Source of the DNA: Bryobacteraceae bacterium
Lineage (GTDB): Bacteria > Acidobacteriota > Terriglobia > Bryobacterales > Bryobacteraceae
NCBI GenBank assembly: GCA_030041985.1
Contig: JASIAM010000174.1
Location: 1 to 41,691 of the forward strand
DNA: 41,691 bases
Reading direction: 5' to 3'
Within the stretch, counting starts at the first letter, position 1. Each line of letters starts with the position of its first letter. Made by a program: the position numbers and the translations under genes. The notes beneath the pieces were generated by a model, which had not been told where the DNA came from, ran no database searches, and worked only from the letters and a program-made list of their open reading frames with translations. Shown in pieces: positions 2,266 through 16,753 of the stretch.

Positions 2266-5200
2266 TTAGGGTTGAATAATCCCTAGTTTGGCGGCGGCAT
2301 CCACGATTGCCGCGGCGGCAGGCGCGGCGGCTGTCCCGCCGTAAACTCCGTTTTCGACGAGGACGGAAACGGCGATCTTCCGGGCGGGTTTTGCGGAGGC
2401 ATCGCTGTACGGAGCGAAGCCGATGAACCAGGCGTGCGACGGGGCGTTTTCGAGTTCGGCCGTGCCCGTTTTGCCCGCAATGGGAATTGCGCCGGCCGCG
2501 CGGCGGCCTGTGCCGCTGGTGACCACTTCGCGCATGAAACGCGCCACAGTCTGCGCAGTCTCAGGCGTGATTACGGGCTGCGGCGCGGCGGTTCGCAGGT
2601 TGCTTTCATCGGTAATCCAGCGGCCCTGCGGCATGGCGCCCATATTGGCTACAGTCGCGGCAACTCGGGCCATCTGAAAAGGAGAGGCCACCACCTGCCC
2701 CTGGCCATAGGAAGCTTGCGGGAGCAATTTTTTCAATTGGCCCGCGGTGTCTGGCGCAGCCGATGCGATGCCCAGCAGATTCGCGGTTTGCCACAGCGTA
2801 TCGGCGCCCACATCGTATGTTCCCAGTTGCGCAAAATAGGCGTTGCACGAAACTACCACGGCGCGCTCCAAATCGAGCCTGCCATGGGGATCATGGTCTT
2901 CGATATCGTCGCGAATCGGACGCTTGTATCCCCGGATGTAATTGCCCACGCGGCCATCGGGCAGACGGATGCACTGGTAGGTGCGGTGAGCGAGCCCGGC
3001 ATCTTTGCGCAGGGCCGCCATGGTGGTGACCACTTTAAAGGTCGAGCCCGGTGGATAGAGGCCGTAGCGGGCGCGGTCAAAGGAGGTTTCTTCGGCGTTG
3101 GCATCCGGAACAGCCAGATTATCCGGCTCCGGAAACGCAACAGCGGCGAGCAGATCGCCCGTGGCTGGATCCATCACTACAGCGGAGCCTTTGTCTCGTC
3201 CAGCTTTCTGCAGTGCATCGCGCAGAATGGCCGCGGAGCGCACCTGAAGGCGCACATCGATGGACATGTGCACATCGCGCGGGCGGTCGAGCACGCGGCG
3301 CACCTCGGGATTATCAGGCTCGTAGCGATGGCGCAGCAGCGGGACCAGTTCGCGGTAATCGTAGCGCACGACGCGCTCCATCTTGCCGGAATCAATGCCA
3401 CCCGTTTTGGGATGGCGCACGGCAACCAGCGTGGGCCGGTCGTCATAGCCGCGCAAACGGCGGGCCAGGTCGCGCTCGACGAACGAAGTGTTGGAGGCGC
3501 CCCAGCGCGCGCGTGTGCGGAGATCGCCCAGCAGCTCGAACGTAAGGCCGCCGAATGGGTAATGGCGGGTTTCCTCACGGGGGCAGGCGCGATCGATATC
3601 AATGCCGAGCTGTTGATACTGCTGCCGGTGATGCTCCAGTTCGTCCCAGTTGCTGGTGGCCAAAGGCAGACCGTTGCGGTCATAAATCGTGCCCTTGGGA
3701 ATCTGATTCATGATTTCCTGGAAGCGTGGATTGTATTGAAAGCGCCGCGCGCCATCGGCCTGGACGACGAGCGTCCCTTGCCCCATGATGGCGGCGCTGC
3801 GCAGCACTTGAACGTATGCAGCCTTGGCGAGCACGACGGCGCCTGCGACACTGAACGCGGCGAGCATGACTTGGGAGGGGCCGCGGAAGGGGGAAGCATT
3901 GGCGGACGAAAGCGCCTGCCCCATGCCCCGGCCGCTAATCGAAAGCAGAATGCCGGCCAGTAGAAAGTTGGCCAGCATGGCCGTGCGGCCGTAACTCAGG
4001 AAGGGCGTGACCACACCGGAAAGCGGGAACACGCCCAGCGCGCCCCCGGCGATCAGCAGAATTTCCAGGGCGGTAGCAGCGGCGAGTCCGGAAGCGAGAA
4101 AGAATTCGTAATCACCGCGCGCGCGCCGGGCAATCGACACGGCGCGGTAAATCAGCAGGGCGTATAAGGCAAACACTGCGGCGATTCCCACAAAGCCCCA
4201 CTCTTCGCCCAATGCGGAGAGCACCAGATCGGTATGCGCGGCGGGCACAATCTGCGGCTCGCCCAATCCGATGCCCGTTCCGGTGACGCCGCCAGTCGCG
4301 AAGGCCCAAAGCGAATGGGCTAACTGATCGCCGCCGTGCACCAGGTTGTCCCAGGGGGAAAGCCACATGGAGACGCGCTCGCGCACTGTATGGGGGATGC
4401 CGATCGCGAAGCCGACAATAAAGCCGGCGGCGAGGGTTGCGAATCCCGTGAGGGGAAGGAACACACTGCCGCGGGCTATGCCATACAGCACCAGGAACAG
4501 GCAGGCGAATACCAGGGCTGGTCCCATGTCTTTCTGCAGAAAGAAAAACGCCAGCGAGAGCGCCACCGAAACAAAAGCCGGCAAAATGTATTCAAGCGGC
4601 GGAATATCGAAATGGCGCGTGAGGACTGCCAGGCGCGGCCGCCGTTCCCGCGCGTGGCGCAGCACCTCCCAACGTTCCGCAAAGTATCCCGCCAGGAAGA
4701 AAACCAGCAGCAGCCGGATGATTTCCACCGGCTGAAAACCGAACAGGTTGACTTTGGCATCGCTCGTACCCGGACCTCGGCCGAAAAGGATCAACAGCAC
4801 GGAGAGGCCGAAACTGGCAAGCAGCGGCACGAAACTCAATTTGCCGAAAAGCCGCGCATAATCGAGTGTGCTGGCCACCGCCAGCAGGGCCGCACCTCCA
4901 GCCACGCCTTGCGCGAAATCTACGAAGAGCAGATTGTCGCGAACCGGATCGCGCAGGCTAATCATCAGCACCAGACCGATTCCCGTGAGCAGGAGCGTGA
5001 TCGGAAGAATCGCCTGATCGCCCCGAAAACCCCGCAAGCAGAGCCACGCATGGGCCAGCAAAAAGGCGGCGAAGAACACCACCGTCCACAGCCAGAAGGA
5101 GCGGCGAAATTGCGCGGGGCTGCGCACCACGGCCAGCGGCTTGAACGCGCGAAATTCGGATGTCGAGAGCAGATCGTGCTGGCGGGCGATAGCGCCCACG

Positions 5201-5520
5201 TTGGAGAGACCACCGGAGAGGTAATAGATCCGCCGCGCGGCATCGGCGCGGCGGCGGGCATCGGGGATTATGCTCAGCGCGGGCAGCAGATCTTCGCGCG
5301 CGCTAAGTTGGTTCAGGTTGAGGATTTGCCGGGAAGCGAGGCCTTTTTCGATATCGGCGAAATCATGCGTTTTGGCGTGATAAACCAGGTACAAGCCGGC
5401 GGCGGTAAACGCAATTCCGGCGAGCAGCCAGTATAATTCCGTGAAACGCCAGAACGGAGTAGGCCGCAAGTTGCGCGGAACGCTTACGCGCTCGCCCGCG
5501 CTGCTGCGGGTGACGGGCAT
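2266..5520 (-). CDS. Fused SEDS (RodA/FtsW) glycosyltransferase and class B penicillin-binding transpeptidase
   Basis: A 1084-residue single chain joining two normally separate peptidoglycan enzymes. Residues about 130-535 are a polytopic SEDS polymerase, with a PWDNLVHGGDQLAHSLWAFATGG-type loop and the HTDLVLSALGEEWGFVG motif of RodA/FtsW. After a further membrane helix (about 550-570) comes a bPBP with the entry motif PKGTIYDRNG. Its transpeptidase box is complete: nucleophile motif STFK near residue 824, SCN near 890 and KTGTAE near 1015. Before the SEDS part, one membrane helix (about 30-48) and about 80 mostly helical residues form an extra N-terminal module that is absent from ordinary RodA. 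SEDS proteins polymerise lipid II and bPBPs cross-link the glycan; the pair normally assembles as a complex. It is the last gene of the FHA/PP2C/kinase operon, starting 2 bases after the kinase stop. Probably the RodA/PbpA elongation synthase, but an FtsW/FtsI role cannot be excluded. Confidence 0.93.
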   Translation of the reverse strand: MPVTRSSAGERVSVPRNLRPTPFWRFTELYWLLAGIAFTAAGLYLVYHAKTHDFADIEKGLASRQILNLNQLSAREDLLPALSIIPDARRRADAARRIYYLSGGLSNVGAIARQHDLLSTSEFRAFKPLAVVRSPAQFRRSFWLWTVVFFAAFLLAHAWLCLRGFRGDQAILPITLLLTGIGLVLMISLRDPVRDNLLFVDFAQGVAGGAALLAVASTLDYARLFGKLSFVPLLASFGLSVLLILFGRGPGTSDAKVNLFGFQPVEIIRLLLVFFLAGYFAERWEVLRHARERRPRLAVLTRHFDIPPLEYILPAFVSVALSLAFFFLQKDMGPALVFACLFLVLYGIARGSVFLPLTGFATLAAGFIVGFAIGIPHTVRERVSMWLSPWDNLVHGGDQLAHSLWAFATGGVTGTGIGLGEPQIVPAAHTDLVLSALGEEWGFVGIAAVFALYALLIYRAVSIARRARGDYEFFLASGLAAATALEILLIAGGALGVFPLSGVVTPFLSYGRTAMLANFLLAGILLSISGRGMGQALSSANASPFRGPSQVMLAAFSVAGAVVLAKAAYVQVLRSAAIMGQGTLVVQADGARRFQYNPRFQEIMNQIPKGTIYDRNGLPLATSNWDELEHHRQQYQQLGIDIDRACPREETRHYPFGGLTFELLGDLRTRARWGASNTSFVERDLARRLRGYDDRPTLVAVRHPKTGGIDSGKMERVVRYDYRELVPLLRHRYEPDNPEVRRVLDRPRDVHMSIDVRLQVRSAAILRDALQKAGRDKGSAVVMDPATGDLLAAVAFPEPDNLAVPDANAEETSFDRARYGLYPPGSTFKVVTTMAALRKDAGLAHRTYQCIRLPDGRVGNYIRGYKRPIRDDIEDHDPHGRLDLERAVVVSCNAYFAQLGTYDVGADTLWQTANLLGIASAAPDTAGQLKKLLPQASYGQGQVVASPFQMARVAATVANMGAMPQGRWITDESNLRTAAPQPVITPETAQTVARFMREVVTSGTGRRAAGAIPIAGKTGTAELENAPSHAWFIGFAPYSDASAKPARKIAVSVLVENGVYGGTAAAPAAAAIVDAAAKLGIIQP

Positions 5521-5522
5521 GG

Positions 5523-7409
5523 TTAGCGGGCGCTCCTGGCGGCGCCGGGTGGCCCCTGCCCCGCATTGAGCTGGTGCAGGCGGAACTCTACGGCCAGCAG
5601 GCTCACGCCCACGCGCAGGATTCCGTCATTGGCATTGCCATAGGGCGCAACCTCCTGGTAAAGCTGGAGCGAGCGTTTGTAATCATCGGCGGCGCGCTGA
5701 ATCTGATCCTTCTCCTCCGGCATCCCGCGGACTTTGCGCGAATCCCACCACGTGCTATCGGCGCGCGCGCGATAGCCATCGGCAAGCTGCAGCTTCTCGC
5801 GATTGCCCAGCGGATAGCCAAGCTTGGCGGCCTGCTGTAGAGCCTGGTAGGCGCGGTCGATGTCCTTCAAGCCGTAGACATAGACGCGGGCCAGCCCGAG
5901 TTCGGGATCGGGTGCTTTGGGCATCAGATGCTGGGCTTCGGTGAATTTGTCCACGGCGAGGTTCAATTCGGCGCTATCGTTATGGGCGGTGCCATTGATG
6001 CGGGCGATTTGGCCCTCCGCTATACGCACGCGGTAGCGGGCGGCGTTGTCCGGGTCCACGGAAAGCGCGCGCGCGGCCATGGTGCGGGCGCGTTCCCAAT
6101 CCTTCTCGTATACCGCCTGGCTGTTGCTGCGATAGTTGCCGATCACAAGATCCGCCGCATCCAAAAACTTTTGCCGCACCAGCTTGCGCGGCCCGTATAA
6201 CAGCAAAGACGAAGGATTGCGCTTGGAAAGTTCCGTCCAGCGGGACCAGATCTGATCCGGGTCGGTTAGTTGTTCGGTTTCGATGTTGCGCTCGAGCTGC
6301 TGGCCGTGTTTCCACAGAAGATATTCAGAGACAACGGCCCAGGTGGCATACAAGAAGCTACTCAGCACCACGAGCGCCACGGCCCGCATGAAATAGGTGA
6401 ACGAGCGGGTTACGGGCGAGCGCTTGCGATTGGGATTGGCAGGAGGAAACGCCTGCCCCACCGGTTGGCTGGTTCGCCGCGTGGCATCGCCGGAGTACGT
6501 GCTCTGGCGGAAGGTGCGCCGGGTTGCCTCCAGGTCCTGATCGGAAATTCTGACTTCAGCCCCATGCCTGAATTTCAGCAAGTCAGCCGCGAATTCACCG
6601 GCTTTCTGATAGCGCAACGATGGATCGGGGGCCAGCGCTTTCGACAGGATGCGGCGCAGCGGCTCGGGACACGGGTCGGGCGCGGGCGGCGGCGGGATGC
6701 GCGAGAGAATCATACGCTCCAGCCGCTCGGTGGAATCGGAGTGGTAAGGCTGGAGGCCGGTGATCATCTCGTACAGCATCACTCCCAGGGACCATAAATC
6801 CGAGAGCGCGTTGACCTCTCCGAAATCGAGGCGTTCGGGGGAGGCGTAGGGCACGCTGCCGAAGGAATTGCGCGTGAGATGGCGCGAGAGCGAGAGCGCT
6901 TTGGCAATGCCGAAATCCAGCACACGCACTTCCCCGCGCTTGTCGATGCGGATGTTCTTGGGCTTGATATCCCCGTGTATGATGCCCTGGTAATCTTTGC
7001 CATCGATGGCCACGGCGAGCGAGTGGGCGTGGTCGAGTGTTTCCGCAACCGCCAGGGCGACATCCACGGCGAACTCGGGCATCACAGGGCCGCGGCGCAG
7101 CAGTTCCGAGAGGTCTTGTCCTTCTACATATTCCATGGCTACGAAGAAGTAGCCATCGCGGTCGCCGATTTCGTAGATAGCGGCGACGCGCGTGTCCACG
7201 GCGGCCAAGTGGGCCTGCAAACGCGCGCCGCGGCGTTCGGCTTCGATCATCTCGGCAGCTTCCGGATCGGCGCTATATTCGATGAGCTTCAGCGCGACGG
7301 ACGAGCCCAACTCGGTGTCGTTCGCGAGATAAACATCGGCCATTCCGCCGCGGCCGAGCTTCTGGCGGATCTCATACTTCCCGAGTTTCCTACCCGCTGG
7401 CGCAATCAC
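5523..7409 (-). CDS. Membrane-anchored Ser/Thr protein kinase with C-terminal TPR-like extracytoplasmic region
   Basis: A 628-residue PknB-type kinase. It has the glycine loop LGRGGMADVY (residues 18-27), ATP lysine K41, catalytic loop HGDIKPKN (145-152, catalytic D147), DFG at 165-167 and an SPE-type (A)SPERL motif. The catalytic loop reads HGD instead of HRD, a non-RD kinase, which in other families means less dependence on activation-loop phosphorylation. One membrane helix lies near residues 336-360. The outer part (about 400-620) shows repeated helix pairs with alternating small residues (AARALSVDPDN, FTEAQHLMPKAPDPE, AYQALQQAAKLGYP) resembling tetratricopeptide repeats, instead of the PASTA repeats of actinobacterial PknB. 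It overlaps the phosphatase gene by 4 bases and is followed 2 bases later by the SEDS-PBP fusion, its probable target. Confidence 0.9.
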   Translation of the reverse strand: MIAPAGRKLGKYEIRQKLGRGGMADVYLANDTELGSSVALKLIEYSADPEAAEMIEAERRGARLQAHLAAVDTRVAAIYEIGDRDGYFFVAMEYVEGQDLSELLRRGPVMPEFAVDVALAVAETLDHAHSLAVAIDGKDYQGIIHGDIKPKNIRIDKRGEVRVLDFGIAKALSLSRHLTRNSFGSVPYASPERLDFGEVNALSDLWSLGVMLYEMITGLQPYHSDSTERLERMILSRIPPPPAPDPCPEPLRRILSKALAPDPSLRYQKAGEFAADLLKFRHGAEVRISDQDLEATRRTFRQSTYSGDATRRTSQPVGQAFPPANPNRKRSPVTRSFTYFMRAVALVVLSSFLYATWAVVSEYLLWKHGQQLERNIETEQLTDPDQIWSRWTELSKRNPSSLLLYGPRKLVRQKFLDAADLVIGNYRSNSQAVYEKDWERARTMAARALSVDPDNAARYRVRIAEGQIARINGTAHNDSAELNLAVDKFTEAQHLMPKAPDPELGLARVYVYGLKDIDRAYQALQQAAKLGYPLGNREKLQLADGYRARADSTWWDSRKVRGMPEEKDQIQRAADDYKRSLQLYQEVAPYGNANDGILRVGVSLLAVEFRLHQLNAGQGPPGAARSAR

Positions 7410-8962
7410 GGCTTGCGGCCCTCCCGGCGGGATTTGGTGTCTCGTGGAGATTTGACATCCAGGAAGAAATTAGTTGCGCGCAGTTCTTCCATGGTAGGGC
7501 CTTGCGGCAAGTCCACTCCGTTGTTCTCGAATATGTTTCCCACCAGCATGGGATGCGCGCCATCGCGGCCCGCGATTCCGGCCTTGCCATTACGCAGCAG
7601 CGCATTGTGAGAAAGCCGGGGCTCCGAGGGGCCGGAGATCAGAATTCCTTCACCCGTGCAATCGTGAACGGCGTTACCTAGCAGAATCGGCGAGGCGGCT
7701 CCGCGAATATCGACGCCGATCGAGGCTTTTTCCACCTCCATGTCGTTGAGTTCCACCTGAGAATCGACCAGCACGATTCCTTCGTGAGGCGCGGCATCGG
7801 CGGATTCGCCTGTTGGCGCGCCGTTAATGTGAAACGCGATCATCCGTGCTCCGCGCACGGCCTGGGCAAGGATTACAGGATCGGAGGGATCGAGAGGCGC
7901 GCGCAGCAATGCCTGCCGGGGTTCGCGGCTGCGCAGCGTCACGCCGCTTTTTAAGCGCACTGGTCCGCTGTACTCTCCGGCGGCGACTTCCACGGTATCG
8001 CCGCTGCGCGCTTCGGCCAGAGCGGCTTGAATGGTAGCGAATTGCCCGCCGCCGCCCACAGCCAAAACGCGCGGAGCAATCGTTACCGGCGGGGGCTGCC
8101 AGAAGCCGCGCGAAAACCAGGCTGCTGCGGCGGCCAGGAAGAGGCCCAGGAAAAACATGGCCACGCGCCCCATCCACACGCCGCGCGCGGGTTGCTCTTC
8201 CACCACGAGAGGCACGAAAAACTGCTCGCCCTCTACGATGAGCACGGTTACATTATCCTTACCGCCGGCCAGATTTGCGGCTTCGATTAACGCGGCTACA
8301 GCGGCTTCGGGGTTTCCGGCGTGTCCCTCCACGGTGAGGCGGATATCTTTGGAGGCAACCTGGTCGCTCAACCCGTCGCTGCACAACAGCAGCGCGCTAT
8401 CCGGTTCGAAGGGGATGCGCCGCACCTCAATGAAATCGGGATCATCAGGCTCGTGCGGCTCCGATCCCACATCGCGAAACACTTCGTTGCGGCGCGGATG
8501 ATGCATGGCCTCAATCTCACTCAGCTCACCGCCATCTTCGCGCTCTCCCACGGGCGAATGGTCGTGGGTGAGTTTGGCGATTTTGCCGTGGCGGATTTTA
8601 TAAAGCCGCGAATCGCCCACATGACCCACCACCGCGGAACCATTTTCCAGCAACACCAGAGTGAGCACGCAGGCCATTCCGGCCCAGTCCGGGCGCGTTT
8701 GGGCCGCCTGGAAAATTTCGTTATTGGCCACGGCGATGGCCTCGCGGACGCGCTGCTCGGCCGTACCGGTTTGCCGCTCGACGCGGGCGCGGATGCGGGC
8801 CAAGGCAATTTCGGCGGCTTTCTCACCGGCCGCCTGGCCGCCGATGCCATCCACCACCAGAAAAATGCCGCGATCGGGATCGCACCAGAAGCCGTCCTCA
8901 TTGTTGCTGCGCACCACGCCGAGGTCGCTTGCGGCCGCGCACTTGAGAGCGGTTTTAACCAT
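7406..8962 (-). CDS. PP2C-family Ser/Thr phosphatase with membrane anchor and right-handed beta-helix domain
   Basis: A 518-residue protein. Residues about 1-240 are a PP2C/PstP domain, with SNNEDGF, VVDGIGG, GHVGDSRLY, CSDGLSDQV and GGKDNVTVLIVE; the metal-binding Asps are in place. A membrane helix (MFFLGLFLAAAAAWF) follows. The C-terminus (about 300-490) has the FATIQAALAEARSGDTVEVAAGEY start and the repeated short-strand pattern (ILLGNAVHDC, EGILISGPSEPRLSHNALLRNG, AGIAGRDGAHPMLVGNIFENNG) of parallel beta-helix proteins. Such folds often bind glycans, so this part may sense the cell wall (inference). The frame is open to 9097, but the ATG at 8962 is chosen because PP2C homology begins at once and it overlaps the FHA gene by only 8 bases. 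It overlaps the kinase start by ATGA. It should reverse the action of the neighbouring kinase. Confidence 0.9.
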   Translation of the reverse strand: MVKTALKCAAASDLGVVRSNNEDGFWCDPDRGIFLVVDGIGGQAAGEKAAEIALARIRARVERQTGTAEQRVREAIAVANNEIFQAAQTRPDWAGMACVLTLVLLENGSAVVGHVGDSRLYKIRHGKIAKLTHDHSPVGEREDGGELSEIEAMHHPRRNEVFRDVGSEPHEPDDPDFIEVRRIPFEPDSALLLCSDGLSDQVASKDIRLTVEGHAGNPEAAVAALIEAANLAGGKDNVTVLIVEGEQFFVPLVVEEQPARGVWMGRVAMFFLGLFLAAAAAWFSRGFWQPPPVTIAPRVLAVGGGGQFATIQAALAEARSGDTVEVAAGEYSGPVRLKSGVTLRSREPRQALLRAPLDPSDPVILAQAVRGARMIAFHINGAPTGESADAAPHEGIVLVDSQVELNDMEVEKASIGVDIRGAASPILLGNAVHDCTGEGILISGPSEPRLSHNALLRNGKAGIAGRDGAHPMLVGNIFENNGVDLPQGPTMEELRATNFFLDVKSPRDTKSRREGRKP

Positions 8963-9806
8963 GGGACAGGCTGCGAAATTCGAGAAACAAAACACCAGCG
9001 AGGCCGATGCGGGCGGTTTCGGGCACGGGCGCCTCGACATCCAGATCGCGCCTGGCGCCCTCCACAACCTCGACGCTCGAGGGAACCAGCTCGCCATTGA
9101 TAGTGGTGCCCAGCCGGCTGAGATCCTTCAGAAAAAATTTGCCGGTAGCGGGATCGCGGCGCAGGCGAAAATGCTCGCGCGAAACGTCGGGCAGGGTATC
9201 GAGTTTGACGTCGGTCCAGTAATCGCGCCCGCCGCGGCCTACCACGATCTGGTCCTTCGTCATGTGGTAAGTCTGGCGGCCGCCATTGTCCTGATACTCG
9301 ATTAACGCATAGGCCGCAGCATTTGACGAAGCAGGCGAAGCGGCGGCTGCCGCGCTGGAGATGGCGGTGGTGGTTTCGCCGCTCAGCCGGCGGGTAGCGA
9401 TACGCTTGGTTGTGCTGCCCGAGCCAAACTCCTGCCGCACGGGCAGACCGAGTTCGGAATAAATGACAATATCGCCAGGAGACACGTCGTCATCGGTGTT
9501 TTCCAGAATCTGAACTTGCCAGCCGCCTTGCGGCGCTTCGACTTTGGGCAGAGAGCGGCGCGCCAGTTTCATCCGCTCCGGGAGCGAGGCGCGGTTGAGC
9601 GATTCCAATTCGGTATCGAGAGCGCGGCGGGCTTCTTCGATCAAGCGGGGAACGATGCCGCGCAGCCGGTCGAGATCATCGGGATGCAGATAGACGTGAT
9701 ACACGGAAGGCGGCAGGGTGGAATAATGGAGCGGCTCCAATCCCTCGCGCATGTTGCGGACGACTTCGAGGATGATATCGCGGCCAGTCGCGGCGGGGCG
9801 GTCCAT
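8955..9806 (-). CDS. FHA-domain phosphopeptide-binding protein with FhaA-like N-terminal domain
   Basis: A 283-residue cytoplasmic protein. The N-terminal half (about 1-75) has the layout of the FhaA N-terminal domain: a basic helix, then a Tyr-rich SVYHVYLHPDDLDRL strand-loop and a helix. An Ala/Ser-rich linker (about 150-168) joins it to an FHA domain (about 170-280) with the pThr-binding signatures VGRGG, SREH and the LSRLGTTING loop. FHA domains dock onto phospho-Thr made by Ser/Thr kinases; in mycobacteria FhaA links PknB to RodA/PbpA and MurJ-family regulation. It is the first gene of the operon, with a good GAAGAGG ribosome-binding site and a TACAAT-like -10 on the minus strand around 9820-9825. 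Confidence 0.88.
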   Translation of the reverse strand: MDRPAATGRDIILEVVRNMREGLEPLHYSTLPPSVYHVYLHPDDLDRLRGIVPRLIEEARRALDTELESLNRASLPERMKLARRSLPKVEAPQGGWQVQILENTDDDVSPGDIVIYSELGLPVRQEFGSGSTTKRIATRRLSGETTTAISSAAAAASPASSNAAAYALIEYQDNGGRQTYHMTKDQIVVGRGGRDYWTDVKLDTLPDVSREHFRLRRDPATGKFFLKDLSRLGTTINGELVPSSVEVVEGARRDLDVEAPVPETARIGLAGVLFLEFRSLSHG

Positions 9807-9893
9807 GGGACAACCTCTTCCGATTGTAGCGGGATATTGCAGCCCTAAGAGCCGGGCCGATTGGACAGTAGATCATTTCCCCTTCTGATTCCC

Positions 9894-9899
9894 TATAAT
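9894..9899 (+). promoter_or_regulatory. -10 element for the ABC transporter operon
   Basis: A perfect TATAAT 55 bases before the ATG at 9954, within the 147-bp divergent region between the FHA operon and the ABC genes. The -35 at the right distance (GATCAT, 9871-9876) is poor. A purine-rich ribosome-binding site (AAGGGGGGGTGAG) ends just before the ATG. Confidence 0.4.
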
Positions 9900-9953
9900 C
9901 CATCAGAGGCGCCTTTTGCGAGAGCCTGCGAGGGAAGAGCAAGGGGGGGTGAG

Positions 9954-11750
9954 ATGCGCGTGCCGATCAGCGAGCGGAAAGAATGGAAGTTCCTCAGCGT
10001 GCTGCCGAAGGCTAGTCCGGGCCTCGCTGCCGCCTGGTGGGCCGGCCTCATCGTGCTTGGTGTGCTACCGGCAGCATTCGCGGTCGCGATGGGCATTCTG
10101 ATTGGCGCCGTGCGCAACGGCCAGCCACTCCTGCTGCCGCTGGCATTTGTTGGCGGCATCTTCTTTGTTCTTCAGGTCCTGAATCCGATCCATAAGGCGG
10201 TCAGCACAAATCTGGGCGATCGCACTGCGGCATGGCTCTACGACCGGCTCACCGAAGCCGCTGTACGGCCACCGGGCATCGGCCATCTGGAAGATCCTTC
10301 CCTGGCCACGGATCTTACGGCCGCGCGCGATTTCGACCTGGGGATGACGGGTCCGCCGCTTTCTGTGGCGATGGATTTCATTGCGAGCGGCATGATCACT
10401 ATGGTGACTGGATTCGCATCTGCCATCATCGTGGTGGCGTACCACTGGTGGGCAGGCGCCGTCCTCGCGGGCGCCTGGCTCGCCACGCACTACCTTCTGC
10501 GCGAAAGCGGCGTTTGGCACGACCGCAACACGCCGGAGGTGCGGCGGGCACAACGCGATGCCGATTACGCTTACCGGCTTGCCGTCGATCCGCCCGCGAG
10601 CAAGGAACTGCGCTTGTTCGGCCTCGCCGGCTGGACCCTCGATCGATTCGTGCGGCAGCGCACGCGATTGCACGAGTTGCAGTATATTGCAACGCGCATG
10701 AGAGAGCGCCCGCTGGCGGGCAGCATATTGCTGGTGATTGCCGCGAACGTGGCCATTTTCTGGTCGATATCGAACGCCGCGCTGGCACATCAAATCAGTC
10801 TCGGGGCGGCCGTGACGTTTTTACAAAGCGCGGTGGGTGTTTCGGCAATCGCGTTTGGAGGCCTCAATTGGGCGCTCGATGGAGCATCCGCGCCAGTCGC
10901 GGCCGTCCTGCGTCTGAGAGAAGCAGCGGAACGGGCTGGCAAACTCCCTTTGGACAACCAAGGCGCGAAGGCCAAGCCTGCACGCGAGATTCGCCTGCGT
11001 GACGTGACCTTTGCTTATCCGGGAAGTGCTCCGGTCTTGGAACACTTCGATCTGACAATTCCCGCGGGCACATCGCTCGCGATCGTCGGTCAGAATGGGG
11101 CAGGAAAGACGACTGTCGCGAAGCTGTTGTGCCGCCTCTATGATCCGAGCGAGGGCGTAATTGAAATCGATGGCGTGGATTTGCGTAACTTGGATCTGAA
11201 GTCCTGGCGCGCGCGCATCAGCGCGGTTTTCCAAGACTTCATTCGCTTCGAATTGCCGCTGCGAGACAACGTCGCGCCCATGGGCGCACCCGATGCGCTG
11301 ATCTACGAAGCACTCGAATCCGCAGGCGCTAAGAATTTCACCTCTTTGGATACCGTGCTCGCCAAGGGCTATGCAGGCGGAACCGATCTTTCCGGCGGCC
11401 AGTGGCAGCGGGTGGCGTTGGCCAGAACGCTGCTTGCGGTAGGCATGGGCGCGGGGGTTGTATTGCTCGATGAACCCACGGCCCAACTCGATGTCCGCGG
11501 CGAGGCCGAGATTTTCGAGCGCCTGTTAGCGGCCACGCGGCACTGCACAACTATATTGATCTCGCACCGATTCTCTACCGTTCGCCACGCCGATCGTATT
11601 TGTGTTTTGGAACAGGGGCGCATGGTGGAACTCGGAACACATGACGAATTGATGGCCGTGGGGGGCCGGTATCGGACTATGTTCGATCTGCAGGCGCAAC
11701 GATTCCAGGAAGCGAATGAGGAAGGCAATGCCTACGAAGTCCTCTCCTAG
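9954..11750 (+). CDS. ABC exporter half-transporter (membrane plus ATPase), first subunit
   Basis: A 598-residue fused permease/ATPase. The N-terminal about 310 residues hold the exporter membrane helices (for example LAAAWWAGLIVLGVLPAAFAVAMG). The nucleotide-binding domain is complete: Walker A VGQNGAGKTT (about 378-387), Q-loop FQDF, signature LSGGQ, Walker B VVLLDEPTAQLD with catalytic Glu, and H-loop SHRFST. The ATG at 9954 has a strong ribosome-binding site; the longer frame would need a TTG at 9861. Together with the overlapping next gene it should form a heterodimeric type-IV exporter. The substrate is not evident: no peptide precursor, peptidase domain or regulator is adjacent. Confidence 0.9.
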   Translation: MRVPISERKEWKFLSVLPKASPGLAAAWWAGLIVLGVLPAAFAVAMGILIGAVRNGQPLLLPLAFVGGIFFVLQVLNPIHKAVSTNLGDRTAAWLYDRLTEAAVRPPGIGHLEDPSLATDLTAARDFDLGMTGPPLSVAMDFIASGMITMVTGFASAIIVVAYHWWAGAVLAGAWLATHYLLRESGVWHDRNTPEVRRAQRDADYAYRLAVDPPASKELRLFGLAGWTLDRFVRQRTRLHELQYIATRMRERPLAGSILLVIAANVAIFWSISNAALAHQISLGAAVTFLQSAVGVSAIAFGGLNWALDGASAPVAAVLRLREAAERAGKLPLDNQGAKAKPAREIRLRDVTFAYPGSAPVLEHFDLTIPAGTSLAIVGQNGAGKTTVAKLLCRLYDPSEGVIEIDGVDLRNLDLKSWRARISAVFQDFIRFELPLRDNVAPMGAPDALIYEALESAGAKNFTSLDTVLAKGYAGGTDLSGGQWQRVALARTLLAVGMGAGVVLLDEPTAQLDVRGEAEIFERLLAATRHCTTILISHRFSTVRHADRICVLEQGRMVELGTHDELMAVGGRYRTMFDLQAQRFQEANEEGNAYEVLS

Positions 11751-13563
11751 TGGCGCTACGAGCGGCGCCGGCATTTCCATCGAACCTCTGCCGCCGACGC
11801 TATCATCCATGTGGCGGCTGTGCAAGCTGGGCTATCGGCACGAACGCCGCCTGATGATTGCCTCCTTGGTGCTTTCGCAACTCGCCGCTTTGCCAGGGTC
11901 TCTTCTGGCGCTCTGGCTGGCATTGCTTGGCGACGGCGTCATTCAACACCGCACGGGCTTGGTGCTGGGCTCCGCCCTCGGCATGGCCGTGAGCACTGCC
12001 GCGACCTGGTTCATGATCACGATCAGCACGCGCGTCCAGCGGCGCTTCCGCGATAAGGTGACGATCGCGCTCGAAGCGCACGTGGCGCATCTGCAAGCGT
12101 CGATCATATCGGTGGCGCATCAAGAGCGGCCGGAATATCTGGATCGCCTCTCGATGCTGCGGAATCAGATCTTCGTGCTCGATCACATGTATGTGTCGCT
12201 TTTCACCACGCTAGGGTGGCTGTTGCGGGTGGCGGTGACCATGGCGATGCTTGCCTGGGTTCATCCAGTGTTGCTTCTCCTGGGCGTATGCGCGCTGCCG
12301 ACAGCGATTGCCTCATTCTGGAGGCCGGACGTGGAGCGCAAGGCGCAGGAACGCGGCGCGCAGGCCGAGCGGCTCTCACGGCATCTCTTCAACCTGGCGA
12401 CGACCGCGGCCCCCAGCAAAGAGGTACGAGTGTTGGGAATAGGCGATCAGATTCTGCGTGACCGGCGGGCAGCCTGGGAGCGTTGGCATCGGCCGATCGC
12501 GCGGGCGCGGTGGGAAACCGCTCTATGGAATGCGCTCGCCTGGTCGATTCTTGGCGCTGCCTATGCCGGAGCAGTGGTCTTCGTTGCCGTGGTGATTCAT
12601 GCGCCGGCGGCGCAGATCCTGCTGGTGCTCGCGGCGGGCGCGGGCCTGGCCGCTTATGTGCGAGCCGCCGTGGGCGAAATCGGCTTCCTACGCGGGTTCT
12701 GGGCGGATGGTTCCCGGCGGCTTGCGTGGCTGGAGGACTATGCGGCAAAAGAGGCGGCTGCCGCCGATCTTCGGGCTCCTGCCGTACTCAACGGAGGCAT
12801 TCGATTGGATCACGTTTCGTTTGCTTATCCCGGCACCACGCGCCTGGTGTTGGAGGACATCTCACTCACGTTGCCGGCCGGCGCGGTAGTAGCGATCGTG
12901 GGCGAGAATGGGGCCGGGAAGACGACACTCGTAAAACTGCTCGCCAAGATGTACGAGGCGACCGCCGGCGCGATTCTGATCGATGGAGTGCCGCTCTCGC
13001 GCATCGCTGCGAGCGATTGGCGCGCACGCATGTCCGGCGCGTTTCAGGATTTCTTCCGCTTCGAATTTCGCGCGCGGCATACGGTCGGTTTGGGCGATGT
13101 TGGCCGCCTCGAGTCTGAACCAGCGGTCGTATCGGCGGTGGCCCGCGCCGGGGCCGGCGACGTGGTTGCGCGTCTTCAGTCCGGCCTGGATACTCAATTG
13201 GGGCCGGCCTGGCCTAACGGCGCCGAGTTGTCATTTGGGCAGTGGCAAAAACTCGCGCTGGCTCGCGGATTCATGAGGGACGACCCGCTGGTGCTGGTTC
13301 TCGACGAGCCCACCGCTGCCATTGACGCCGAGACGGAGCATGCGCTTTTCGAGCGCTACGCCACCGCTGCACGCAGCGAGCAGAATAGCAACGGCCGCAT
13401 CACCATACTGGTGTCGCACCGGTTCTCCACGGTACGCATGGCTGACCTGATTATCGTTTTGGACGGAGCGAGGCTGGTCGAATCGGGCAGTCATGAAGAG
13501 CTCATGGCCAACCACGGCCCCTACTCCGAGCTGTATACGATCCACGCCGCCGGCTACCGATAA
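11716..13563 (+). CDS. ABC exporter half-transporter, second subunit
   Basis: A 615-residue partner of the preceding gene with the same layout: membrane domain to about residue 330, then ATPase with Walker A VGENGAGKTT, Q-loop FQDF, Walker B LVLVLDEPTAAID and H-loop SHRFST. The signature motif is LSFGQ instead of LSGGQ, so the two ATP sites of the heterodimer are predicted to be unequal, a common trait of such exporters. The ATG at 11716 overlaps the first subunit by 35 bases; the ATG at 11728, also with an upstream AGGAAG, is equally plausible. The coupling suggests tightly linked translation. The substrate is unknown. Confidence 0.88.
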   Translation: MRKAMPTKSSPSGATSGAGISIEPLPPTLSSMWRLCKLGYRHERRLMIASLVLSQLAALPGSLLALWLALLGDGVIQHRTGLVLGSALGMAVSTAATWFMITISTRVQRRFRDKVTIALEAHVAHLQASIISVAHQERPEYLDRLSMLRNQIFVLDHMYVSLFTTLGWLLRVAVTMAMLAWVHPVLLLLGVCALPTAIASFWRPDVERKAQERGAQAERLSRHLFNLATTAAPSKEVRVLGIGDQILRDRRAAWERWHRPIARARWETALWNALAWSILGAAYAGAVVFVAVVIHAPAAQILLVLAAGAGLAAYVRAAVGEIGFLRGFWADGSRRLAWLEDYAAKEAAAADLRAPAVLNGGIRLDHVSFAYPGTTRLVLEDISLTLPAGAVVAIVGENGAGKTTLVKLLAKMYEATAGAILIDGVPLSRIAASDWRARMSGAFQDFFRFEFRARHTVGLGDVGRLESEPAVVSAVARAGAGDVVARLQSGLDTQLGPAWPNGAELSFGQWQKLALARGFMRDDPLVLVLDEPTAAIDAETEHALFERYATAARSEQNSNGRITILVSHRFSTVRMADLIIVLDGARLVESGSHEELMANHGPYSELYTIHAAGYR

Positions 13564-13601
13564 GGGACTGTTTCACTATTGGTAAGTTGTGCCACGGGCC
13601 C

Positions 13602-14996
13602 TCACTTTGCCACTGCAACGGCCGTCACGGCATCCCAGACGAACTCGACGAACTGGTATAGCGACGCTTCGGGGATGCGCTCGACATCGCTGTGAGCGCC
13701 GTAATTGGTTCCATCCTCTTCTGTGTGCGCCGGTCCGATGCCGTAAGACTGGATGCCCTTGGCCCGCAGTTGCGCCATGTCCGTAGCGCCGGTCGACATG
13801 CTCGGCAGGACCGTCACGCCGGGAAACATGCGCTGGCTGATTTGTTCCAGGGTGCGGTACATTTCGGTGTCCAGGCGCGAGGGCGGACCGGCCGGGCGAT
13901 CGTTGCCCGGAATCCGCTCGATGCGCACCGCCGGATCGCCAATCACCTTGCCCATTTCGGCGAACAGTTTGTCCAGATCTTCATCGGGCAGGGCGCGCAC
14001 ATCGAGCGTGGCCTCGGCTTCGGAGGGAATCACATTGACGCGAAAGCCGCCTTTGATGATGGTCGGCACGATGGAGGTACGCAGCATGGAATAGTGCTGC
14101 GGCTCATTTACGGCGAGGTAGCGCTGCACCTCCTCGGCGCGCTGGGGATCAAATAGCGCTTTGTAGCGGGCCGCTTTTTCAGGAGGGCTGATGGCGGCCA
14201 GCTTTTCAAAGTAGGTGCGCGTGGTATCGTTCAGGCGCATCGGGGTCTCCCAGGTTCCGGCTTTGGCCACGGCGGCCGAGAGGTGGACGATAGCATTATC
14301 TACGCGCGGGACGGAGCCGTGGCCGGAAGTGCCGTTGACCACCAGGCGCGTGCTGCGCGGCACCTTTTCGGTGGTCTCGATCTGCACCACGGTTACACGG
14401 CCATTCTCGATGGTTGCGCTGCCGCCTTCGGTGAGTGCGAACTCAGCGTTGATCTCATCGAAGTGCTGCTGAGTCATGAAGTCGATGCCAGGGCCGGTAG
14501 TGCCCTCCTCACCGGATTCGGCCAGAAAAATCACGTCGCGGCCGAGCTTCGCTCCGCTGCGCTTCAGCAGAAGCATGACCATCAGATTGGCGGCGACTTT
14601 GTCTTTATCGTCAATGCTGCCGCGTCCCCAGATGTAGCCGTCCTTCAGCACTGCGCCGAAGGGGTCGACGGGCCACTTCTCGCGCTGCACACCGACGACG
14701 TCGGTGTGGCCAAGGATGAGGATGGGCCGCTTGCTGCCGTTGCCCTTCAGACGCGCCACGATGTTGGCGCGGGTGGGATCGAGCGCAAAGAGTTGCGCAG
14801 GAATTCCTTCAGAGTCGAAGACCTTCTTCAGATATTCGGCGGCTTTGGTTTCGTTGCCCGGTGGATTGCTGGTATCGATTTGCACGAGCGAGCGATGGTG
14901 GCGCAGAATTTCGGCTTTCTGCCGCTGCCAATCGACGGTGGGAACCTGAGCGGCAGTGGCCGCCGCAAACACAACCAGCAGCGCGATGTTCTTCAC
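13602..14996 (-). CDS. Secreted M20-family metallopeptidase
   Basis: A 464-residue protein with a cleavable signal peptide (IALLVVFAAATAAQ, residues 4-17). The M20 dizinc motifs are present: GHTDV (H97, catalytic D99), GRGSIDDKD (metal-bridging Asp about 129-130), AESGEEG (catalytic and metal Glu 163-164), TEGGSA and a C-terminal GAHSDVERIP histidine. The lid dimerisation domain carries STRLVVNGTSGHGSVP. Family members hydrolyse dipeptides or N-acyl amino acids; periplasmic versions are common in acidobacteria. The start is GTG with a perfect AGGAGG six bases upstream (15002-15007). It lies 26 bases downstream of the kinase gene, suggesting co-transcription. Confidence 0.9.
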   Translation of the reverse strand: MKNIALLVVFAAATAAQVPTVDWQRQKAEILRHHRSLVQIDTSNPPGNETKAAEYLKKVFDSEGIPAQLFALDPTRANIVARLKGNGSKRPILILGHTDVVGVQREKWPVDPFGAVLKDGYIWGRGSIDDKDKVAANLMVMLLLKRSGAKLGRDVIFLAESGEEGTTGPGIDFMTQQHFDEINAEFALTEGGSATIENGRVTVVQIETTEKVPRSTRLVVNGTSGHGSVPRVDNAIVHLSAAVAKAGTWETPMRLNDTTRTYFEKLAAISPPEKAARYKALFDPQRAEEVQRYLAVNEPQHYSMLRTSIVPTIIKGGFRVNVIPSEAEATLDVRALPDEDLDKLFAEMGKVIGDPAVRIERIPGNDRPAGPPSRLDTEMYRTLEQISQRMFPGVTVLPSMSTGATDMAQLRAKGIQSYGIGPAHTEEDGTNYGAHSDVERIPEASLYQFVEFVWDAVTAVAVAK

Positions 14997-15022: not shown

Positions 15023-16753
15023 CTATTTCGCGTCCCGCACACAGCGGAAACCGAGGTTCGAGTCACGCCAGGGTGCGGGGACCATGGTGGAATCCCAAAT
15101 TGCGCCGCCGACGAGCTTGTCGCTGAAGGACAGTCCGCGAATTTGGTACCAGGTATCGGTGGCCTTGAGAGGCGGCTTCAGTTTTTTTTGAAAGTAGTCC
15201 AGCGCGTGCGCACTGGGCGCGCCGGTCTCATCAACGAATTCACGGACATTGCCGATCATTTGCAACGCGCCTGCGGGGCTCGCCCCTTGGATAAAATCGG
15301 CGGCTGGCCGAACCCCGTCCGTGCCGACGTTGGCGCGGCTGGGGTCCGGGTCATTGCCCCAGGGGAAAAGGCGGCCGTCCGTGCCGCGCGCTGCCTTCTC
15401 CCATTCGAGAGCCGACGGAAGGCGTTTGCGCGCCCAGTTGGCGAAGGCTTTGGCGTCGTCAATCGTTACATTGACCACCGGGTATTGCGGTTGATCTTTC
15501 GGGAAATCGGGCGGCAGAGCGCGATTGGTGGCCTCGGCGAAGGCTTGATAGGCCGCGTTGGTGACTGCGGTGCGGTCAATGTAGAAGGCGGGAAGCGAAA
15601 CCTGCTCCTTCTTGTCGCCGTGAAGAAACGGGCCTTCGGGAACCAACACCATATCGCCGGACTTCATGCTGAGGCTGGACGCCAGCGCGGGCGCGGCGGA
15701 GGGCTGGGGATTGGTTTTGGGAGCCGGCGTATCCCAGGGGTGCCACGCGAACAGGATTGCCATACCGACGCCGGCGAGGGACGAGAGCCACCAATTCGAT
15801 TTGCGGCGCGGGGATTTTTCTGGCGGTTGCGGAGTGGGCTCCGCGATCGCTTCCGGCTGGCGCTCGGGCATGACCAGCGTGGCGGCATTCATCACTACCG
15901 TCGCCGCATTCGGATCGGTTTCCGGAGCCACGCCGCGGGCCGCCGCCAAAAGCCGCTCCAGTTCCGCGCAGATCGATCCGAATCCATCGGGCCGCTCGGA
16001 GGACGCTTTAGCGGCACAGGCGCAAACAAGCCGGCACAACGCTTCCGGCGCTCCGGCATTGCGCAATGCTTCTACACTGAGCGGCTCGTTGAGAATGGCG
16101 TAAAAGATGCGCTCCACGGTTTCGCCCGCGATGGGATGCAGGCCCGTGATCAGCTCAAACAGAAGAACGCCGAACGCGTACACATCGGCCTGGGCGGTGA
16201 CTGCGCCGCCGGTTACCTGCTCGGGCGCCATGTAGTAGGGCGTGCCCACCATAAAGCCCGTGCGCGTCAGTTCCAGCCCTTCCCGTTTCGAGATGCCGAA
16301 ATCCATCAGCTTCACCTGGCCGTTCTGCGCGATGTGGACATTTTCCGGCTTGAGATCGCGGTGCACGATTTTCTGCGAGTGAATATATTGGAGCGCCCGG
16401 GCGATTTCGAGGGCAATGCGGAGCTTGTTGCGCAAGTCGCCGGTGCGGCCGTGGTGGATGGCGCTGCGCAGGTCTTCACCGTGCAGAAACTCCATCACCA
16501 TAAAGGGGCGGTGCTGGTCGTCTTCGCCGAAATCATAAATGCCCAGAATGTTTTCGTGGGAGATATTGCCGGCCGTCCGCGCTTCGGCCAGAAATCGCGC
16601 TTTGACGTCGCCATCAGCGCGTCCTTTTTCGGTGAGAATTTTGAGCGCGACGGTGCGCCCGATGAGGGTGTCGCGGGCGCGGTAGACCTCGGACATGCCG
16701 CCCCCCAGGTACTCCTCGAGTTCATACTTGCCGATGCGCGCGGGCAGGTCCAT
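15023..16753 (-). CDS. Ser/Thr protein kinase fused to a formylglycine-generating-enzyme-like (sulfatase-modifying factor) domain
   Basis: A 576-residue membrane kinase. The cytoplasmic kinase has a short Gly loop YLGGGMSEVY, ATP lysine K38, HRDLKPEN with D132, DFG at 150-152 and APE in YYMAPEQV. A Pro-rich linker and one membrane helix (about 322-338) follow. The outer domain (about 370-575) has the SUMF1 landmarks MVLVPEGPF, YIDRTAVTNAAYQAF, LPSALEWEKAARG, FPWGN, GNVREFVDE, RGLSF and NLGFRCV. The paired catalytic cysteines of true formylglycine-generating enzymes are not seen, only one Cys in FRCV, so a binding or sensor role is more likely than catalysis. The first 21 codons are duplicated at 17563-17626. 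The M20 peptidase follows on the same strand. Confidence 0.9.
   Translation of the reverse strand: MDLPARIGKYELEEYLGGGMSEVYRARDTLIGRTVALKILTEKGRADGDVKARFLAEARTAGNISHENILGIYDFGEDDQHRPFMVMEFLHGEDLRSAIHHGRTGDLRNKLRIALEIARALQYIHSQKIVHRDLKPENVHIAQNGQVKLMDFGISKREGLELTRTGFMVGTPYYMAPEQVTGGAVTAQADVYAFGVLLFELITGLHPIAGETVERIFYAILNEPLSVEALRNAGAPEALCRLVCACAAKASSERPDGFGSICAELERLLAAARGVAPETDPNAATVVMNAATLVMPERQPEAIAEPTPQPPEKSPRRKSNWWLSSLAGVGMAILFAWHPWDTPAPKTNPQPSAAPALASSLSMKSGDMVLVPEGPFLHGDKKEQVSLPAFYIDRTAVTNAAYQAFAEATNRALPPDFPKDQPQYPVVNVTIDDAKAFANWARKRLPSALEWEKAARGTDGRLFPWGNDPDPSRANVGTDGVRPAADFIQGASPAGALQMIGNVREFVDETGAPSAHALDYFQKKLKPPLKATDTWYQIRGLSFSDKLVGGAIWDSTMVPAPWRDSNLGFRCVRDAK

Follow-up and report, generated by a model that had tools for sequence, protein, structure and literature searches.

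A Conserved Gene Set in Some Soil Acidobacteria Suggests a Third, Switchable Peptidoglycan Synthase

Organization of the Operon and Its Genome Context

The stretch of DNA analyzed in this study (hereafter the window) comprises 41,691 nucleotides and represents contig JASIAM010000174.1 (C142 in our numbering) of the Bryobacteraceae bacterium assembly GCA_030041985.1, an acidobacterial genome of 6.0 Mb in 355 contigs. On the reverse strand of the window, an operon of four genes was identified, encoding in the order of reading an FhaA-like protein of 283 amino acids (8955–9806; open reading frame, Pfam and profile–profile comparison), a PP2C phosphatase of 518 amino acids that contains a membrane segment and carries a parallel beta-helix at its C-terminal end (7406–8962), a transmembrane Ser/Thr kinase of 628 amino acids featuring HGD in place of HRD (5523–7409) and a 1084-amino-acid fusion of a SEDS glycosyltransferase with a class B penicillin-binding protein (PBP) transpeptidase (2266–5520). 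The phosphatase is counted from a Met codon at 8962, whereas the mechanically called reading frame begins further up, at 9097; the kinase frame opens with GTG. Genes 1 and 2 overlap by 8 bases (8955–8962) and genes 2 and 3 by 4 bases (7406–7409), and a gap of 2 bases (5521–5522) separates the kinase from the fusion. An earlier reading made from the letters of the window alone (the sequence-only reading) had described this gene set, its order and its spacing exactly; the FhaA_N domain, the loss of the HRD arginine, the conserved Thr motifs and the fifth gene of relatives, all described below, had escaped it. The four protein types were confirmed by Pfam, which matched FHA (9.7e-10) in gene 1, PP2C_2 (2e-13) and Beta_helix (1.5e-8) in gene 2, Pkinase (7.8e-39) in gene 3, and FTSW_RODA_SPOVE (7.2e-50) together with Transpeptidase (6e-38) in the one frame of gene 4. 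Since the fusion is a single frame in many other genomes, including one represented by a single contig of 7.48 Mb, an assembly fault is excluded. A promoter scan yielded nothing above chance (one found, 2.3 expected).

Besides the fusion, the genome encodes a RodA–PBP2 pair and FtsW. The two further SEDS genes, located on contigs C11 (adjoining a PBP gene) and C269, fell into two different classical SEDS clades of the quick tree described below and were taken as RodA and FtsW, names that we assume, in part from the neighboring PBP; in the SEDS tree, both are closest to those of genome G299. Furthermore, PP2C was matched three times in the genome and protein kinase 18 times, with two of the kinase matches lying in a single frame; the genome's best match to FhaA_N is gene 1 itself (20.5 bits, under the cut-off).

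The FhaA-Like Protein

Gene 1 encodes an N-terminal FhaA_N-like domain, a linker and a C-terminal FHA domain. The N-terminal domain (residues 14–68; 9603–9767, reverse strand) was recognized by Pfam PF12401 with 19.5 bits, the Pfam cut-off being 25, and by profile–profile comparison. A profile of 11 acidobacterial N-termini matched a profile of 19 actinobacterial and clostridial N-termini, out of 35 found, with a probability of 97.5% (E 5e-12), compared with at most 3.6% for five unrelated profiles and at most 0.6% for ten column shuffles. Approximately the first 30 residues of the actinobacterial domain are unmatched in the acidobacterial profile. In the FHA domain (residues 193–250; 9057–9230, reverse strand; Pfam and motif inspection), the GR (190–191) and SREH (209–212) motifs are present, and SRLGT occupies the position of the canonical STNGT motif. 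Due to this replacement, the specificity of the domain may differ.

The SEDS–PBP Fusion

The fusion opens with a tail (residues 1–28; 5437–5520, reverse strand) that carries the motif VTRS including Thr4 and that is predicted to be cytosolic by reasoning from SEDS topology. A first membrane segment (29–47) is followed by a stretch of about 95 residues, the SEDS core (172–529; 3934–5007, reverse strand; Pfam and motifs), a further segment (547–565) and the transpeptidase domain (778–1073; 2302–3189, reverse strand; Pfam and motifs). All motifs are complete, namely HTD (429–431), STFK (826), SCN (891) and KTG (1017), and the residues D431, S826/K829, S891/N893 and K1017 are invariant in 7/7 aligned fusions. 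We take D431 to be the catalytic Asp of the SEDS part, and SxxK, SxN and KTG to be the catalytic motifs of the PBP part. The tail motif [VIT]T[RK]S was found at residues 3–6 in 17 of 24 fusions (17 of 22 tested; absent from L040 and L048), and none was seen by eye among 20 tails of other phyla. PBP_dimer gave a weak match in three of seven fusions scanned, the window's fusion not being among them; the NCBIfam models pbp2_mrdA, ftsW and rodA match the fusion, all below their cut-offs. A helix-hairpin-helix domain (Pfam HHH_3) was detected in the periplasmic insert of the Armatimonadota fusion L048, and in none of seven fusions of the acidobacterial set scanned.

Phylogenetic analyses of the SEDS part were based on a quick tree of 74 rows and a careful tree of 58 rows, both unrooted; the 16 rows dropped for the latter were long, short, odd or redundant and included L040, L046, L100 and L118. 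In the quick tree, 25 classical rows lie on one side of a branch (support 99), and the 15 acidobacterial-type fusions (99) and the SEDS proteins of loci from other phyla (96) form groups of their own, with L118 placed between groups at weak support. In the careful tree, a branch of length 1.01 (support 100/100) lies between the 37 locus-type rows and the 21 classical ones; the acidobacterial fusions are supported at 100/99 and the other locus SEDS proteins, from Actinomycetota, Bacillota and Chloroflexota, at 94/92. Approximately unbiased (AU) tests, for which the groups were defined with the tree already known, rejected a union of the acidobacterial fusions with RodA (p 4.3e-7) or with FtsW (p 4.0e-7), and also a single clade of all fusions (p 0.0074). 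The quick tree of the transpeptidase part likewise comprises one clade of acidobacterial fusions (99).

The number of membrane segments preceding the conserved SEDS motif agrees with this grouping. Based on a crude hydropathy count, 13 of 16 acidobacterial fusions have seven such segments, one has six and two have five, the 330-residue limit of the count cutting into the last two. Seven segments were also counted in 3/3 coriobacterial and 2/2 clostridial rows with the motif and six to seven in 10/10 actinobacterial rows, compared with four to five in all 15 classical rows with the motif; the motif needed for counting is missing from 1/4 coriobacterial, 4/6 clostridial and 4/19 classical rows.

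The Kinase and the Phosphatase

None of the 21 locus kinases possesses the arginine of the HRD motif, which reads HGD in 19 of them, HAD in L038 and HND in L052. Among the 40 comparison kinases in the tree, HRD is present in 39, including 14 from the window's own genome. Non-RD kinases in general may not need phosphorylation of the activation loop. By analogy, this phosphorylation is perhaps dispensable for the locus kinases, in which case more of the control would rest on the phosphatase. The juxtamembrane segment of the window's kinase (6471–6524, reverse strand) carries two TRRT motifs (residues 296–299 and 310–313). The pattern T[RK][RK][TS] was first seen in the alignment and tested afterwards: it occurs in the juxtamembrane segment of 12/21 locus kinases and 1/28 control kinases, and 0/1000 shuffles reached the observed count (shuffle mean 0.36). 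From residue 348, the kinase continues with a membrane helix and a predicted ectodomain (5526–6368, reverse strand; AlphaFold2 and Foldseek), which is all-helical in the AlphaFold2 model (mean predicted local distance difference test (pLDDT) score 93.9). Its best Foldseek matches are tetratricopeptide repeat (TPR) proteins, with E-values of about 3e-4 and low template modeling (TM) scores of 0.2–0.45 by query among the rows listed. For PASTA, no Pfam match was obtained in the window's kinase at E-values up to 10, and the match to the model NF033483 (PknB_PASTA_kin) is confined to the kinase part (229.7 bits, cut-off 450).

In the phosphatase, D38, D117, D196 and D236, presumably the metal-binding Asp residues, are invariant in 11/11 aligned sequences. 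The AlphaFold2 model of its catalytic domain superposes on PstP (1txo) with a TM-score of 0.90 by target at 31% identity. A helix at residues 266–286 is followed by a predicted extracytoplasmic beta-helix (residues 299–500; 7463–8068, reverse strand; Pfam Beta_helix/NosD and AlphaFold2 model). The model has a mean pLDDT of 86.5 and a predicted TM-score of 0.51, and the arrangement of its domains is thus unsure. By hydropathy, the membrane segment lies above the threshold in the window's phosphatase and in 6/9 relatives tried; a stretch inside the catalytic domain of the window's protein lies above it as well. No beta-helix relatives of the phosphatase were retrieved by a sequence search of the PDB. 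The beta-helix is lacking from the phosphatase at three loci of the second subtype introduced below (L047, L217, L218). These results bear out the sequence-only reading's statement that the sensor domains differ from those of the mycobacterial locus.

Both the acidobacterial kinases (support 100) and the acidobacterial PP2C proteins (99) group together in their trees, neither set being placed among the others. Of the kinase, PP2C and SEDS trees called for by the sequence-only reading, only the SEDS tree ties the operon to the actinobacterial locus class. The kinase and PP2C trees were also considered as proof of a single origin of the whole locus and were rejected in this role; accordingly, the claim of common descent is restricted to the FhaA-like protein and the SEDS part.

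Distribution, Gene Order and Co-Inheritance

The distribution of the operon is patchy. In a phylum sample, for which two candidates were scored per genome, the fusion was matched at E <1e-50 in 8 of 297 genomes, the match in G059 being only 30% identical. Among 41 relatives, seven carry it (3/5 of the genus, 7/25 of the family and 0/16 from other families of the order), and three of these seven (G310, G312, G313) contain two copies or pieces of two. A wider contig scan considered the best 80 loci of 549 relatives; among the matches listed, acidobacterial records rank at the top and one Rhodothermales and one Chthonomonadales metagenome-assembled genome (MAG) come next, followed by Coriobacteriia, other Actinomycetota, Bacillota and Chloroflexota. 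The MAGs of loci L100 and L118, which bear other names, may be mis-binned.

Before these searches, the sequence-only reading had made its proposal depend on conservation of the gene order in acidobacterial relatives. The order FHA, PP2C, kinase, SEDS–PBP fusion was indeed found in full at 18 of the 27 fusion loci of the acidobacterial clade (window, L035, L037, L038, L044, L045, L047, L050, L052, L200, L211, L212–L218; L211, whose contig ends within the FHA gene, is counted as full). At three loci the order agrees and is cut by contig ends (L034, L219 and that of G258, whose contigs L036 and L007 were counted as one locus), and at three more (L046, L049, L051) upstream sequence is absent, L049 and L051 being fragments that might duplicate other loci. 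Three loci deviate. L039 has FHA and PP2C genes downstream and other kinases around it; in L040 (5656–12595; G059, contig of 5,985,000 bases), PP2C lies directly before a divergent fusion with a weak kinase match behind and without an FhaA-type gene; and in L048 (9503–12910), from the Chthonomonadales (Armatimonadota) MAG, the fusion stands alone, no kinase, PP2C or FHA gene being detected in 22.9 kb. Overall, the fusion is accompanied by phospho-signaling genes at 21 of 24 loci with upstream sequence.

For 17 complete loci, the distances in six gene trees are correlated in all 15 pairs (Mantel r 0.80–0.91; 0/1000 permutations as high in each case). The loci L047, L050, L216, L217 and L218 are set apart from the others by a branch in 6/6 gene trees (support 97–100) and are regarded as a second subtype. 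Both subtypes occur together in three genomes (G299, G312, G313), indicating that whole operons were duplicated or acquired and that parts were not exchanged between the types.

A Fifth Gene Encoding Another FHA Protein

Most relatives encode, directly behind the fusion, a protein of 250–290 amino acids whose C-terminal part is an FHA domain (Pfam E-values between 1e-6 and 2e-4 for the six proteins scanned). Its N-terminal domain matches the actinobacterial FhaA N-terminus with a probability of 97.0% (E 1.1e-10; controls at most 6.7%). Among the 41 relatives, this fifth gene and the fusion occur in the same seven genomes. The copy in the window's genome is intact (251 amino acids, 70% identical to that of G310) and displaced to contig C116. 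A tblastn search behind the window's fusion with the proteins of eight relatives revealed no remnant, and the place is occupied by a VapBC-like pair on the reverse strand, consisting of a 64-amino-acid frame at about 2008–2204 and a PIN-domain gene (1618–2013; Pfam 7.7e-11). A transposase-like frame, recognized by eye, was also observed at the edge of contig C116 (L229, 1–783, reverse strand).

In the phylum sample, strong matches to the fifth gene (E <=5.8e-57) were obtained in 13 of 297 genomes, comprising seven of the eight fusion carriers and six of the 289 non-carriers; five more genomes gave weaker matches. The candidate view that the fifth gene exclusively accompanies the fusion holds among the 41 relatives and was rejected on the basis of this sample. 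Six loci (L234–L239), from six genomes of one family, contain the fifth gene and no other genes of the module in the stretches fetched.

Neighboring Genes in the Window

Divergently from the operon, two overlapping ABC transporter frames encoding membrane and ATPase parts (9861–11750 and 11716–13563, forward strand) were observed. A second Ser/Thr kinase is encoded at 15023–16753 (reverse strand); by eye, its C-terminal part resembles a formylglycine-generating (sulfatase-modifying) domain.

Comparison with Known Systems

According to excerpts of a 2025 paper (PMC11898655), the mycobacterial locus comprises fhaA, fhaB, rodA, pbpA, pknA and pknB together with the phosphatase gene, and the N-terminal domain of FhaA has no relative known to its authors. 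Excerpts of further work describe PstP as conserved across the Actinobacteria within a wall-synthesis locus (PMC6554272) and RodA of Corynebacterium as located at the polar tip (PMC8262863). Titles and abstract openings of open-licence papers, in partial result sets, yielded no account of the acidobacterial operon or of a natural SEDS–PBP fusion.

Like the actinobacterial fhaA-fhaB-pstP-rodA-pbpA-pknA/B locus, the operon encodes a protein with FhaA_N and FHA domains beside a PP2C phosphatase, a SEDS protein of the same class, a class B PBP and a transmembrane Ser/Thr kinase. The sequence-only reading had noted this as the same functional set. Our results support that view and, for the FhaA-like protein and the SEDS part, extend it to common descent, as judged from the FhaA_N comparison, the SEDS tree, the AU tests and the membrane segments. 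The operon differs from the actinobacterial locus in that SEDS and PBP are fused, the kinase precedes rather than follows the synthase, PASTA and the HRD arginine are missing, the kinase has a TPR-like ectodomain and the phosphatase a beta-helix, and about 95 periplasmic residues are predicted between the first two SEDS membrane segments. Moreover, no small FhaB gene adjoins it, and the cell also has the RodA–PBP2 pair and FtsW. Two defining features of the actinobacterial locus, a PASTA kinase of the PknB type and the order FHA, PP2C, SEDS, PBP, kinase, are absent here, and the operon is therefore not classed as a member of that locus. We propose from the sequence comparisons that the FhaA-like protein and the synthase share an ancestral module with the actinobacterial locus, the kinase and phosphatase having diverged or been replaced. 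We think that the operon would work like that locus, with which it shares descent in at least two parts.

The fused synthase, listed by the sequence-only reading as a difference, distinguishes the operon from mycobacteria but not from Actinobacteria at large. At least seven loci of Coriobacteriia (L053–L058, L061) encode SEDS and PBP as one polypeptide of 910–978 amino acids, located between PP2C and a PASTA-type kinase. These coriobacterial fusions are nested among actinobacterial SEDS proteins, precede their kinase and have no insert separating the first and second membrane segments; apparently, they and the acidobacterial fusions are of separate origin. In clostridial and chloroflexal clusters (e.g., L063, L082, L083, L108, L115), an FHA gene likewise stands before a SEDS gene of the same class, followed by a PBP gene. 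These clusters are unfused, and kinase and PP2C are mostly missing from the stretch seen. L063, from a Desulfotomaculum MAG, has both (7750–14396; FhaA_N–FHA, PP2C, SEDS, PBP, Ser/Thr kinase) and shows the actinobacterial gene order in a member of Bacillota. The RodA–PBP2 pair of the elongasome and the FtsW–FtsI pair of the divisome share the SEDS and class B PBP chemistry with complete motifs, but belong to another SEDS clade, have fewer N-terminal membrane segments and consist of separate polypeptides.

Proposed Function and Alternative Explanations

Based on these results, the operon is proposed to encode a third peptidoglycan synthase of the SEDS–class B PBP type, made as one polypeptide and equipped with its own membrane phospho-signaling circuit, and to share part of its descent with the actinobacterial locus; we assign this reading a probability of roughly two in three. 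The scheme is built on the analogy with mycobacteria and on the Thr motifs. The kinase, with its TPR-like periplasmic sensor, would phosphorylate Thr residues in cytosolic tails, most plausibly Thr4 in the tail of the synthase and the TRRT motifs of its own juxtamembrane segment. Phospho-Thr would be bound by the FhaA-like proteins (gene 1 and the displaced fifth gene), which would act as a scaffold for the synthase or license its activity, and the PP2C protein, with its periplasmic beta-helix, would reset the phospho-state. Kinase and phosphatase may both sense the periplasm, via different ectodomains. Control of the synthase by the kinase–phosphatase pair through FHA, as put forward in the sequence-only reading, is thus retained as a hypothesis.

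Several observations weigh against this reading. The juxtamembrane motif is absent from 9/21 kinases, including all six of the second subtype, and its test was made only after it had been seen; the canonical Asn is replaced in the FHA domain of gene 1. Neither the kinase tree nor the PP2C tree unites the acidobacterial proteins with PknB or PstP, and the transpeptidase tree backs the locus grouping weakly, splitting the acidobacterial fusions and locus PBPs from PBP2/FtsI types at 79. Simple vertical descent would likewise make the gene trees agree. Finally, the fifth gene occurs alone in six of 289 fusion-less genomes of the phylum sample and is missing from one of eight carriers (G059, with its divergent fusion), and a direct profile comparison of its N-terminal domain with that of gene 1 gave only 1.4%, so that the kinship of the two relies solely on each matching the actinobacterial domain.

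The unplaced kinases and phosphatases, together with the lack of PASTA and of the HRD arginine and the gene order unlike that in Actinobacteria, would fit a convergent assembly, in which an ordinary acidobacterial cassette of FHA, kinase and phosphatase genes came to lie beside a fused RodA–PBP2 copy without any descent shared with the actinobacterial locus. This is made distinctly unlikely by the FhaA_N homology, the SEDS tree and AU tests and the common extra membrane segments, and also by the Desulfotomaculum locus L063, which represents an intermediate set in another phylum. It is highly improbable that the fusion is a duplicate elongation synthase, acting like RodA–PBP2 in an MreB system, with the phospho-signaling genes serving another task: the matches to the NCBIfam models and the presence of an elongation-type RodA–PBP2 pair in the genome speak in its favor, but the AU test rejects union with RodA, four gene trees agree, and the fusion keeps its phospho-signaling genes at most loci, as counted above.

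Alternatively, the circuit might act on precursor supply (MurJ/MviN, CwlM-like partners) rather than on the synthase of the operon, the genes being merely co-expressed. Mycobacterial FhaA was described as binding phosphorylated MviN and CwlM; in excerpts of the same 2025 paper, its exact role is disputed, an earlier proposal as an inhibitor standing against its description there as a promoter of peptidoglycan synthesis (PMC11898655). We regard this explanation as unlikely, since the conserved Thr motif in the tail of 17/24 fusions resembles the kinase's own motif and may point to the synthase as a target.

The reading of a third synthase with its own phospho-circuit can be widened to a third class of polymerase beside RodA and FtsW, distinguished by extra N-terminal membrane segments and common to Actinomycetota, Bacillota, Chloroflexota and Acidobacteriota. 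Its gate would be a phosphorylated Thr in its cytosolic tail, a mark that the locus kinase would write, FhaA-type proteins read and the locus phosphatase erase. In Acidobacteriota, it would be one polypeptide and an optional growth machine that is gained, duplicated or lost as a unit. This generalization is tentative and, as a whole, doubtful.

Implications

Most work on the link between Ser/Thr kinase signaling and wall growth comes from Gram-positive lineages, and mycobacteria in particular. According to the SEDS tree, the name 'RodA' in Actinobacteria denotes a protein other than that of the Rod system, which would affect the carry-over of results between model organisms. The acidobacterial module is probably dispensable where the RodA–PBP2 pair and FtsW are kept, and its deletion for testing should therefore leave the cell viable. 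Furthermore, the conserved Thr motifs make the regulatory idea open to point-mutation tests, and the one-piece synthase, which fixes polymerase and crosslinker at 1:1, helps purification and structural work. For some soil acidobacteria, the conserved gene set suggests a third, switchable wall-building machine.

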